Positions 23,918-28,255 of a DNA stretch of 64,000 nt are shown here, one piece after another. The notes below the pieces were generated by a model. The model was not told where the DNA came from. It saw nothing but the letters and a program-made list of their open reading frames with translations, and did no database searches. Every line of letters begins with the position of its first letter. The stretch's first letter is position 1. The DNA comes from an uncultured Fodinibius sp. Lineage in GTDB: Bacteria > Bacteroidota > Rhodothermia > Balneolales > Balneolaceae. The position numbers and the translations under genes are program-made. The stretch lies in NCBI GenBank assembly GCA_913057775.1, contig CAJXOG010000001.1, forward strand, positions 124,001 to 188,000, read 5' to 3'.

Positions 23918-25036
23918 ATGTATTTGAAAATCATCTTTTGGGCGACGCTCTTTCTCTGGTTACCAAACATACTTTCTGCCCAACCATCGACCTATAAATT
24001 GGGTACTACCGTACGAATTGATTCCGGCGATACCCTCTCCCAAAACGTTCTTTCTGCTGCTCAAGTCCTTGAAATTTATGGCCACTTAGAAAACGACTTA
24101 TTTGCAGCTGCAAGAAATATTACTATTGAAGGTGCTATAACTGATGATCTCATCATTGCTGCAGAAACGATCACCTTGAATGGTACAGTTCGAGATATGA
24201 CCCTTGCAGCAGGTGACTCTATTACAATTAGCGGAAAACTTCAGGGCGACCTTTTTATTGTTGGGAATAAAATCAAAATAACTCCAGATGCCATGATTAG
24301 GGGAAATGTTGTTATTGTAGGTAATGAAATTCTGATTGAAAACGGTCTCATGGAAGGTTGGGTTCGTATTTATGGTAATGATGTTACACTTGGTGGCACG
24401 GTTCAACGTTATGTAGAACTCTATGTTAATGAGATTGCTTTTGCCGAAGATTACAACCCTCTCGGGGCTACTACCCTTATCACTCACCATCAGATTGATA
24501 CTAAAACTTTACCAAATGCCCCTGAAAACCTCACAATTATTGTAGAAAGACAAGATGGATGGGGAATATTGCTCCTATTTCGCCTGTGGGCTTCCGTATC
24601 AGTATTGATCATTGGATTCTTGCTTTTGTTGATTTTTCCGAAGACATCAGTCGATCTATACCGATTTTCAAAAGAACGCTATCTAAAAAATACAGGCATT
24701 GGATTACTTCTGTTTTTGGCAATTCCAATTATAAGCATACTTCTATTAGTGCTCTTTTTTACTATTCCTTTGGTTTTTCTAATCTGGATGTTATACGCCA
24801 AAGCATTACTATTAAGCTACCTCCTTGTGGCGCTTCTCTTAGGCTCTACACTGATTCGATATTTCAAAACCGAGTCATTTACAGACCATTATTGGGGCCT
24901 CGCATTAGGAATGGTAATTATCTTTTTGCTTACGATTATTCCCTATGCAGGCCCAATCATTAATGTACTTCTCATTTTCTTAGGCCTTGGTTCTTTGCTG
25001 CGATATTTCTGGAAAATGAGGGGCAATACCATTTAA
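23918..25036 (+). CDS. exported/membrane protein with bactofilin-like repeat domain
   Basis: A 372-residue protein. A signal peptide (1-21, ending LSAQ) is followed by about 160 residues of short beta repeats (AAQVLEIYGHLENDLFAAA, ITIEGAITDDLIIAAE, ITLNGTVRDMTLAAGD, ITISGKLQGDLFIVGN), the right-handed helix pattern of polymer-forming cytoskeletal/bactofilin-like proteins. Four hydrophobic helices then fill about 210-360. The combination suggests a surface- or periplasm-facing beta solenoid anchored in the inner membrane; function unknown. It stands alone. Confidence 0.75.
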   Translation: MYLKIIFWATLFLWLPNILSAQPSTYKLGTTVRIDSGDTLSQNVLSAAQVLEIYGHLENDLFAAARNITIEGAITDDLIIAAETITLNGTVRDMTLAAGDSITISGKLQGDLFIVGNKIKITPDAMIRGNVVIVGNEILIENGLMEGWVRIYGNDVTLGGTVQRYVELYVNEIAFAEDYNPLGATTLITHHQIDTKTLPNAPENLTIIVERQDGWGILLLFRLWASVSVLIIGFLLLLIFPKTSVDLYRFSKERYLKNTGIGLLLFLAIPIISILLLVLFFTIPLVFLIWMLYAKALLLSYLLVALLLGSTLIRYFKTESFTDHYWGLALGMVIIFLLTIIPYAGPIINVLLIFLGLGSLLRYFWKMRGNTI

Positions 25037-25477
25037 TCCTTTTGAAGGGACAACCCATGGAAATTATTATTGAAGGGATTCGATAAATTCTTAAATTTTA
25101 TCATTCGTTTCCCGAATACAGTTTTTTTGTTCCCCTACATTAGGAGTTCTGGTTTTTTAGCGACAAACTTGGAATTGATACCGCTCCTTCGAAGCCAAGA
25201 AAAAAATGACAAGATACTTCATTTCCTGTAGTGCAAATTTTTACATGCAATGCAAGGATCAACCTACAGACATACGTCTTGTGCTATATTATATTGGTAA
25301 TAGACTAAAGCGAGAGAGCTTGACATTTTGAAATTGCACAGCCTTATGAATGCTACGGCATAATATTAAGGTAAGTCCAAAATAATGACCGGAGACTTCT
25401 TCTGGAACTGGCCTAAATCAGGCATTTCAAGTTGTGTGCAACGGTCTAATATTTATCGGTATATCAATACTGATAAT
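25037..25477. other. intergenic stretch, no gene seen
   Basis: No reading frame of plausible composition lies here on either strand. It contains TTCCCCTACATTAGG at about 25129-25143, a lone relative of the TGTAGGG sites, and AT-rich sequence leading into the TPP-like element. I could not identify a promoter with confidence. Confidence 0.6.
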
Positions 25478-25578
25478 AAAGCCAGCAGTTGAGGGTGCTT
25501 TGATGAATCAAAGCTGAGAACAAACCTCCAATACTTACTTCAGGTGATGCTGAAATAAGGAAACTGCTGGCTTTTTTT
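25478..25578 (+). promoter_or_regulatory. TPP-riboswitch-like element with P1 stem doubling as terminator; no gene downstream
   Basis: The RNA folds as the thiamine pyrophosphate aptamer. Long P1 is AAAGCCAGCAGTT (25478-25490) with AACTGCTGGCTTT (25562-25574); P2 is GAGG/CCTC (25491-25494, 25525-25528); P3 is GCTTTGA/TCAAAGC (25497-25503, 25508-25514); then comes the invariant CTGAGA (25514-25519). The 3' part from 25532 aligns without gaps to the E. coli thiM aptamer from memory, with P4 CTTA/TAAG and P5 TTCAG/CTGAA around GTGATG. The J4/5 GAT and the pyrophosphate-side GCG are changed (ACT and AAA). Seven T follow P1. Downstream on this strand is only antisense of the ATPase gene. Confidence 0.6.
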
Positions 25579-28255
25579 ATTGATCGATAAATTCCAATTC
25601 CGGTCCATAAGCTTTCCACAGTTGTCCCACCAAAAGTGGAATGCTACTCATAACAAAAATCACGATCCATCCAGTTACCGTAGGAGGCGTAATTTTTAGA
25701 ACATTACTGAAGATCGGTACGTAAACCGCTATAAATAGCAACCCGGTACATAGCAGCAGTGCTCCCCAAACATAGTTATTGGTCGTTATTGTATTACCCC
25801 AAAGACTGGAATCACTGCTTCGCATGTTAAACACATGCCATAACTGGGCAAAAGCAAGTGTTAAAAAAGAAAGGGTTACCGCTTTATCCGCAGTTAAAAA
25901 CAGATATTCCATCCCAATAAAGAGTGACCCTAACACTGACAACGTTATAATAAACGCATAACCAGCGATCCCTATCCATTCACTGCTGCCCAAAATAGGC
26001 TGTTCGGGGTTGCGCGGCGACTTTCGCATAATCCCTTCTTCTCCCTCACCGACACCCAATGCCAAGGCCGGAAAAACATCAGTAACTAAATTTAGAAAGA
26101 GAATCTGTAATGGCAGAATTGGCAAGGCTGTTCCAATAATGGTCGCCATAGCAACCACCATCACTTCGCTTACATTGCACGACATCAGATAATAAATAAA
26201 GCGACGTATGTTATTAAAAATGACACGCCCCTGTTCTATTGCACTCACAATAGTCGAAAAAGCATCATCAGTAAGCACCATATCCGAGGCCTCTTGCGCC
26301 ACCTGGGTACCCCGCTGCCCCATAGCAATACCAATGTCAGCCTTTTTAAGAGCAGGAGCATCATTTACGCCATCCCCCGTCATCGCCACAATTTGCCCCT
26401 TCTTTTGAAACAGCTCGATAAGATCCAATTTTTGATTGGGACTCACGCGTGAAAAGACTGAGGTACGATAGATCCGATCCCCCTCGCTGCTATCAATATC
26501 CAGCTCGGAAATATCCGGCAGATCCCGACCGTGGATTGCTTCCCGTTTATCTAAATCAATTCCTACTGCCTCTGCAATTGATTCAGCTGTAGCTTTTTGA
26601 TCACCTGTTATCATCACCACCCGTATACCTGCCTGTTGACATCGCAAAATTGCAGGTTTTACATCACTGCGAGGCGGATCGCTCAGTGCAACAAAGCCCA
26701 ATAGTGTTAATTCCTCATAGGGATTATCCTTGGTTGTTTCCGCTGTTTTAACCGCCAATGCCAGCATGCGCAGGCCTTCTTGCCCCAATTTCAGGTTCAG
26801 TTCATCCCATTGTTTACGATCGTTTTCATGTAATGGTTGCTCTTTTCCATCAACCATAACTGTGTTACAAGCACCCAAAACAGCTTCCGGTGCCCCTTTC
26901 ACACATACCCGATACGCTCCATCCTTCTGTTCATTCCAGGTAGCCATCATTTTTACATCCGCATCAAAAGCTTCCTCCCGTACTTCCGGATATTCAGATG
27001 AGATTTCTTCAATATCTATTTCTGCTTTTTTAGCGGCTTCAAGCAAGGCAATCTCTAATGGATCACCCGTTCCTCCCTTTTCTTGATGATGCAGCGATGC
27101 GTTATTACAAAGAACCCCTACTTCCAGAGCCAGCCTCAAATCAGTGTACTCCATTAGTGCTTGTTCTGATAAGGGTATGTCCCGATCTCCTGACAGATAG
27201 ATACTGGTGGCCGTCATTTTGTTTTCTGTCAATGTTCCGGTTTTATCAGTACAGATAACACCAGTAGCTCCTAACGTTTCTACAGATGAGAGTCGGTTGA
27301 CCAAAGCATTTTTCTTTGCCATCAGCCGAATTCCTTTAGCCAGAGCTATAGTGGCAACAATTGGCAACCCCTCAGGAATGGCCGCTACCGCCAGCGCAAT
27401 ACCCGTTTCAACCATCAAATACAACTCTTTGCCCGCCCAAATACCTGATCCTACAACAAAGGCAGCAATAAGTAGGGTTACAGCAATTAAACGATAGCCA
27501 AGCCTATCGAGCCGTTCTTCGAGCGGTGTTTGCTCTTGTTCCGCTTCCTCAACAAGCGATGAAATTGCTCCCAGTTCGGTATCTAATCCGGTTGTTATTA
27601 CAACTGCCTCACCAGATCCGCGCGTTATTGCCGTTCCTTTATATAGCATACTACTCCGCTCAGCCAATACGGTGTCATCGGCAACCGCCTCAGTCTGCTT
27701 TGTAACCGGTAAACTTTCTCCCGTCAGCGCTGATTCATCAGCCTGGAGCTTGGATTGTTGAAGGATGCGCAAATCAGCAGTGATAATATCACCGCCCTCA
27801 ATAATAACTACATCTCCCGGTACCAATGCTTCAGCATCAATTTCTTTAGTTTCGCCCGCCCTGCGGACCCTCGTCCTCACTTTTCCCAGCTTAAAAAGCG
27901 CTTCCATGGAACGAACGGCACGCAGCTCGGTAAAAAATCCAATTCCGGTATTAATGACTATAACAGCAATAATAGCCCAACCATCCACATATTCACCTAG
28001 CCAAAATGCAAACAGTGCTGCAGCGGCCAAAAGTACGATAATAATACTCTTAAGCTGATCGATAAGGATCTCTACAACACTCCGCTTTTTGTGCCTGCGA
28101 AGTTGGTTGGGGCCATATTTTTGTTGACGCTTTTCCACCTCTTCAGGTGAAAGCCCATGTTCTGTATCAACCTCTAAGGTTCCAAGAACACCGTTGATAT
28201 CCAGTGCCCAGGGGTGTTTTTCAAAGAAAGGATTGGTTTCTGCTGATCGGTCCAT
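25577..28255 (-). CDS. P-type cation ATPase, P2A (calcium/SERCA-like) type
   Basis: An 892-residue ion pump. The N-terminal cation-ATPase domain has KYGPNQL near 50. The actuator motif DESALTGESLPVTKQ is near 170-185. The M4 ion-binding motif is AAIPEGLPIVATIALAKG near 285, the phosphorylated Asp is in CTDKTGTLTENKM near 336, nucleotide domain KGAPEAVL near 480, VVMITGDQKATAESIA near 570 and the hinge TGDGVNDAPALKKADIGIAMG near 655. Ten helices are implied. PEGLP marks P2 calcium- or sodium-type pumps; the ion is not proven. It starts 43 bases after the CheB-like gene, so they are likely cotranscribed. Confidence 0.92.
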   Translation of the reverse strand: MDRSAETNPFFEKHPWALDINGVLGTLEVDTEHGLSPEEVEKRQQKYGPNQLRRHKKRSVVEILIDQLKSIIIVLLAAAALFAFWLGEYVDGWAIIAVIVINTGIGFFTELRAVRSMEALFKLGKVRTRVRRAGETKEIDAEALVPGDVVIIEGGDIITADLRILQQSKLQADESALTGESLPVTKQTEAVADDTVLAERSSMLYKGTAITRGSGEAVVITTGLDTELGAISSLVEEAEQEQTPLEERLDRLGYRLIAVTLLIAAFVVGSGIWAGKELYLMVETGIALAVAAIPEGLPIVATIALAKGIRLMAKKNALVNRLSSVETLGATGVICTDKTGTLTENKMTATSIYLSGDRDIPLSEQALMEYTDLRLALEVGVLCNNASLHHQEKGGTGDPLEIALLEAAKKAEIDIEEISSEYPEVREEAFDADVKMMATWNEQKDGAYRVCVKGAPEAVLGACNTVMVDGKEQPLHENDRKQWDELNLKLGQEGLRMLALAVKTAETTKDNPYEELTLLGFVALSDPPRSDVKPAILRCQQAGIRVVMITGDQKATAESIAEAVGIDLDKREAIHGRDLPDISELDIDSSEGDRIYRTSVFSRVSPNQKLDLIELFQKKGQIVAMTGDGVNDAPALKKADIGIAMGQRGTQVAQEASDMVLTDDAFSTIVSAIEQGRVIFNNIRRFIYYLMSCNVSEVMVVAMATIIGTALPILPLQILFLNLVTDVFPALALGVGEGEEGIMRKSPRNPEQPILGSSEWIGIAGYAFIITLSVLGSLFIGMEYLFLTADKAVTLSFLTLAFAQLWHVFNMRSSDSSLWGNTITTNNYVWGALLLCTGLLFIAVYVPIFSNVLKITPPTVTGWIVIFVMSSIPLLVGQLWKAYGPELEFIDQ

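Follow-up and report, generated by a model that had tools for sequence, protein, structure and literature searches.

The TPP-class aptamer module at positions 25478–25577 (+ strand) of the window, that is, of the whole 64,000-nt stretch analysed here, is best read as the 3′-terminal part of a small RNA, free-standing and with two domains, whose TPP-aptamer tail would survive in the window copy mainly as a terminator; judging from sequence comparison, we give this reading a probability of about 0.78. TPP riboswitches are the commonest riboswitches. A riboswitch is nearly always taken to be the leader of the gene under its control, and few examples are known inside separate small RNAs (EutX/Rli55). 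Balneolaceae have a well-supported, uncatalogued structured RNA, of which more than 40% of the examined copies are TPP-tailed with no gene to control.

RF00059 aligns to 25481–25578 (+) over model positions 1–105 with 52.4 bits (E = 1.3e-9; cmscan of 401 nt). This is just below the curated gathering score of 54.3, and the module is for that reason missing from the default Rfam scan of the window, which lists a tRNA only; other thiamine-related Rfam families gave no match in the module scan. The minimum free energy of the module is −38.2 kcal/mol (z = −5.1, with none of 200 shuffles as good), and the fold consists of exactly P1 (13 bp), P2, P3, P4, and P5. The 5′ arm of P1 (25478–25490) pairs with 25562–25574, and seven Ts (25572–25578) stand directly 3′ of the helix, the extended P1 being the predicted terminator stem and the T run its tail. 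CUGAGA is present, and UGAGA at 25515–25519, the J3/2 T-loop that binds the pyrimidine (U39–A43; residue roles and thiM numbering as in PMC3764141), is intact. GGGUG, GGAA, U59, A80, G72, and most of L5 are kept as well. In the P4/P5 hairpin (25534–25559), G60-A61-U62 is replaced by ACU and G76-C77-G78 by AAA, i.e., G60, C77, and G78 correspond to A25537, A25554, and A25555, and the internal loop is closed up. The sequence-only reading had described these features (P1–P3, the invariant CTGAGA, a thiM-like P4/P5 half, 13 pairs running into seven Ts, and the changes of GAT in J4/5 to ACT and of GCG to AAA), and they hold against the alignment, the fold, and the thiM numbering. A search of 12 genomes of the genus (Fodinibius) at the DNA level found orthologues in six others at 68–86% identity, with the similarity running well upstream of the aptamer; this conservation puts the module beyond chance. 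Judged by sequence and fold, the module is homologous to the TPP aptamer; it is not to be filed as a TPP riboswitch, since the pocket residues, the cis gene, and the cut-off all fail. The scan for sigma-70 promoters and simple terminators was uninformative because loops were allowed only up to 8 nt.

The aptamer makes up just the 3′ third of a conserved RNA of larger size, whose start lies approximately 180 nt upstream; the predicted noncoding RNA has two domains and spans ~280 nt (25300–25577, +) from a promoter-like block to the terminator, with conservation in homologues. To call the aptamer an orphan, as had been done from the letters, is misleading, since it is joined to a partner domain, one that also occurs on its own. 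The common order in 15 genus copies is repeated TACA motifs with a TATATT box, a leader, a 5′ domain of ~115 nt, a hairpin, and the TPP aptamer. In the window (all features on the + strand), direct repeats, TGTAG..TTACA and CCTACA, ~21–36 nt apart, occupy 25227–25272, a block conserved in the 15 genus copies and probably a regulator-binding region. The conserved TATATT block contributes the probable −10 region, TATATTATATT (25285–25295), and would place the transcription start near 25297–25300. Direct CYTACA repeats ~21 bp apart precede the promoter both here (25227–25272) and in other TPP-tailed copies, and suggest a dedicated regulator of the tailed copies. The leader of the 15 genus copies carries TTGACATA.TGA, and several genus copies have GAGAGAG in their 5′ leader (25310–25318 in the window).

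The 5′ domain (25333–25447) matches model R1 with 94.9 bits, a score to be read knowing that R1 was built from 15 sequences, the window among them. Its four helices meet with hardly any unpaired linker. P-A (5′ arm 25334–25340, partner 25435–25441) is paired in 95% of cells and shows two-sided changes at 6/7 pairs; P-B (25341–25372), with a UACG tetraloop of the UNCG type, at 7/8; P-C (25373–25398) at 6/6; and P-D (25399–25434) at 7/7 family-wide, the window copy of P-D pairing poorly. The loop of P-C, ACCG (25388–25391), is the 5′ half of a pseudoknot, and CGGT (25442–25445), immediately 3′ of P-A, is its 3′ half; the CCG/CGG pairs are nearly invariant, and the two inner pairs that do vary show six two-sided changes. 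The linker hairpin ATCGGTAT/ATACTGAT (25455–25474), seen in the fold, is also found in genus copies.

Minimum free energy folding of the window RNA alone did not recover the four-way junction. Comparison of homologues shows the 5′ domain to be a four-way junction with a pseudoknot, and an RNA family new to Rfam. In a plain MAFFT alignment of 15 sequences, the same sequences that were inspected to choose the structure, two-sided changes occur at 26/32 pairs, and none of 500 shuffles reaches any measure. The alignment of 64 copies, which is fitted to the covariance model and so biased towards it, has two-sided changes at 29/32 pairs, with 438 cells vs. 152 ± 12 in shuffles (0/500). When the partner is slid by 1–3 columns, pairing in the 64 copies falls from 87% to ~31–43%. 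It had been proposed that a sub-threshold RF00059 score with no conserved pairing in relatives would speak against the element: the score is indeed below threshold (52.4 against 54.3), but pairing is clearly conserved. Rfam scans of the 5′ domain from the window, 11 genus loci, and 19 other loci returned TPP and weak chance matches only. Identity with 6S RNA is rejected, as the RF00013 covariance model has no match in the 12 genus genomes. A search of open-access literature found no report of the 5′ domain, of a free-standing TPP example, or of riboswitches in Balneolaceae.

Covariance-model searches yield ~80 copies of the 5′ domain in 50/92 Balneolaceae genomes. Model R1 finds the domain in 43/92 family genomes, and model R2 in 50/128 genomes of the order, all 50 within the family; no copy lies outside the family among the 394 phylum genomes sampled, ~300 of them non-family. 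The domain is present in 11/12 genomes of the own genus and is patchy elsewhere in the family. The RNA is not essential, because the twelfth genus genome (G005) lacks it. In several genomes there are two or three copies, and these lie between a few hundred bases and a few kilobases from each other. Tandem or near-tandem copies are seen at three each in L109 and L136 and at two each in L125, L142, L115, L111, and L129, where every copy has an upstream region to itself and, in most cases, a U run or terminator-like hairpin as well. Outside the genus, a DNA pattern scan of named genomes gave mostly chance matches. Plasmid and phage collections gave no blastn match; at that sensitivity a mobile-element origin is rejected, and at some loci the conserved neighbours speak for vertical inheritance instead.

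A TPP aptamer lies within ~100 nt 3′ of the domain in 27 of the 64 copies examined (26 found by script, with the false pick L129 dropped, and L115:5794, identified by eye). Another 28 are of a short, TPP-free kind, in which two or three DnaA-box-like repeats, TGTGGA(A/T)AA, are followed by a TTGACA promoter, the domain, and U6 or more; the remaining nine are intermediates. The DnaA-box-like repeats occur in none of the 27 tailed copies and in 0.9% of random stretches. Repeats of this type, TGTGGATAA/TGTGGAAAA, stand just 5′ of TTGACA in L112, L113, L118, L120, L121, L123, L125, L126, L128, L129, and L131–L144. In a tree of the 5′ domain (115 columns, hence of low resolution), the short kind forms essentially one group. 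As the domain also exists alone, with its own promoter and U tract, it would be the working (effector) part of the RNA.

The tails differ in how they end. P1, of 11–14 bp, is the stem before the U run in the window and most other genus copies; outside those copies no U run adjoins P1, and a distinct terminator-like hairpin may come after it. In L072, L074, L115, L116, and L117, a purine-rich stretch of the AAGAGAGAG type lies 3′ of the TPP module, before the separate terminator-like hairpin. A different variant is L070 (G010:C5:156224), a sub-threshold TPP match of 52.2 bits that has no 5′ domain and has a separate terminator 3′.

The window RNA and its homologues look like free-standing small RNAs, judging from gene order. 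The downstream gene is on the opposite strand in 45/61 copies (p = 3e-4, a rough value as the copies are related), so most copies cannot be leaders; cis control of the downstream gene is rejected for most copies on orientation, the gene being co-oriented in 16/61. In the window, as had been noted, no + strand gene follows the module, and next comes the convergent P-type ATPase gene on the − strand, whose stop codon (25577–25579) overlaps the T run. This overlap, together with the good fold of the reverse strand of the module (−42.1 kcal/mol), is what one would see if the module did no more than terminate transcription from both sides between two converging genes. However, the reverse-strand tail, UUUAUUAU, is weak, a conserved four-way junction and a promoter-like block lie upstream, and homologues adjoin many different genes, so that we regard this explanation as very unlikely; a shared-terminator role may coexist with the small RNA.

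On the other side, the upstream gene (23918–25036 in the window) is co-oriented in 40/57 copies, which would suit a 3′-UTR element of that gene rather than an independent RNA. Such an origin is highly improbable, given that the upstream gene is divergent in 17/57 copies, that promoter-like blocks are conserved between the gene and the RNA, and that the 28 short copies begin right at the TTGACA promoter. The window gene at 23918–25036 encodes a membrane protein (23918–25033), part of which is a FapA/bactofilin-like beta-solenoid (PF03961; a weak match of 19.7 bits, below the cut-off). Three kinds of neighbour recur across genera, namely FapA/bactofilin-like, RND-exporter-like (a name taken from the sequence rather than from a profile search), and P-type ATPase genes, and this conservation points to vertical descent at that locus. 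The window RNA is flanked by the first and the last of these, and the second copy in the genome adjoins the RND exporter.

Counted by eye, the residues G60, C77, and G78 of the pyrophosphate pocket are kept in 20 of the 27 TPP tails. All three are lost in the window, G011, G006, and G001; G78 is changed to A in G007 and in one G025 copy; and L124 is too changed to read. In the tree, the four full-loss copies form one clade, with G007 as its sister. In these four, the 3 × 3 internal loop of P4/P5 has shrunk to one mismatch or given way to a continuous helix, the hairpin is kept paired by two-sided changes, e.g., A-U to G-C, and UGAGA, GGGUG, and GGAA are all kept; the replacement bases vary from species to species. 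The window genome has two further TPP matches above the cut-off, C5:57074 and C1:524594. The latter (62.9 bits) is the second copy of the two-domain RNA, with an intact pocket, so that one genome holds both an intact-pocket and a pocket-lost copy; the former lies directly 5′ of a TonB-receptor-like gene (read from sequence), an ordinary cis position. The sequence-only reading had left the choice between a relic, a free-standing small RNA, and an aptamer of changed specificity: the small RNA gains from the promoter-like block, the 5′ domain, the mostly convergent genes, and the ~80 copies, while a relic or a changed specificity would concern the window clade only, since most relatives keep the pocket.

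A thiD/thiE operon behind a TPP riboswitch is found in seven other genus genomes and is absent from the four pocket-lost genomes; G010 has no such operon, yet its pocket is kept. ThiC is absent in all six genomes tested, the window genome included, and in the latter there is no ThiC, ThiD, or clear ThiE match, which makes it an apparent thiamine auxotroph. This genome still keeps the intact TPP riboswitch before the TonB-receptor-like gene (C5:57074). Thiamine pyrophosphokinase is present in 12/12 genus genomes; with it, and with no riboswitch-linked operon, ThiC, ThiD, or clear ThiE, thiamine itself is probably the imported form. The link between loss of the pocket and loss of thiamine synthesis, seen in one clade, is only suggestive.

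With the pyrophosphate contacts gone, TPP binding in the known way is unlikely in the window clade, where control by TPP has probably been lost or altered. For the window copy, we favour a retained terminator and structural tail that has lost TPP control. The simplest form of this explanation is a pure relic, i.e., a decayed TPP aptamer that is now only the intrinsic terminator of the RNA; it accords with the loss of pocket residues in a single clade that has a half-way sister (G78→A in G007), with the strong stem and U7, and with the reduced thiamine synthesis in the same genomes. The single-stranded UGAGA, GGGUG, and ACC, irrelevant to termination, nevertheless survive in G001 at 75% overall identity, and we rate the pure relic at slightly below even odds.

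The retained residues would also fit a changed specificity, with the module of the window clade binding a ligand with an aminopyrimidine ring (thiamine, HMP, or a relative) and no pyrophosphate, and acting on termination or stability. UGAGA, GGGUG, and GGAA are kept in all four clade copies while G60, C77, and G78 change; the window copy also keeps U59, A80, G72, and most of L5; P4/P5 is maintained by two-sided changes; and the clade is without the riboswitch-linked thiD/thiE operon, with thiamine probably the imported form. Retention can, however, be explained equally by a structural need of the terminator, the same replacement pocket is seen in no second clade, and the replaced bases differ among the four species. 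Moreover, known TPP aptamers bind orders of magnitude more weakly once the phosphate tail loses negative charge (PMC7824784). We consider a changed specificity unlikely.

According to the favoured explanation, the two-domain RNA would be transcribed from its own promoter, and the TPP module would be a 3′ tail that ends or stabilises it. In copies with an intact pocket, TPP would lock the aptamer and favour termination or protection of the 3′ end, so that the level of the RNA, or its form, would depend on TPP. With its 11–14 bp, P1 probably forms with or without the ligand, and ligand-dependent switching of so long a helix is difficult to envisage, a point against this explanation. TPP could nonetheless make the junction close faster just as transcription ends, an effect that AdoCbl has on EutX (PMC5821096), or protect the 3′ end. 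In the window clade, the module would be kept mainly as a terminator and a folded 3′ tail. A bolder version, in which the four-way-junction effector and the TPP aptamer make up a new trans-acting class of TPP-controlled small RNAs throughout the family, with the window clade re-tuned to a non-pyrophosphate ligand, e.g., thiamine, after the loss of thiamine synthesis, seems to us quite unlikely. The copies with and without the aptamer, and those with the pocket intact, half-lost, and lost, form natural series that illustrate a possible stepwise path from an aptamer to a plain terminator or to another ligand.

Among known systems, 6S RNA (RF00013) is likewise a free-standing RNA of similar size, but it is a bubbled rod, whereas the RNA described here has a four-way junction with a pseudoknot and a patchy distribution. 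The TPP riboswitch (RF00059, THI element) shares P1–P5, the UGAGA T-loop, and alignment over the whole model, and the full set of pyrophosphate residues is present in 20/27 tailed copies; the differences are that no thiamine gene lies downstream here, a new 5′ domain is fused to the aptamer, P1 is the terminator stem, and the window copy lacks G60, C77, and G78 and scores below the gathering cut-off. The HMP-PP riboswitch (thiS motif; PMC6478431) resembles the present case in having a thiamine-related aptamer within the stem of an intrinsic terminator; its aptamer is small and unrelated, however, stands before thiS-type genes, and on binding its ligand keeps transcription from terminating, whereas here a full TPP-class aptamer has no such gene downstream. 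In EutX/Rli55, an AdoCbl aptamer is part of a separately promoted noncoding RNA, the end of the aptamer is a ligand-stabilised terminator, and no cis gene is needed (PMC5821096). Sequence and synteny are consistent with a similar arrangement here, an aptamer in a predicted separately promoted RNA with no cis gene; the ligand class is different, and the EutV-binding site is 3′ of the aptamer, whereas here the partner domain is 5′ of it.
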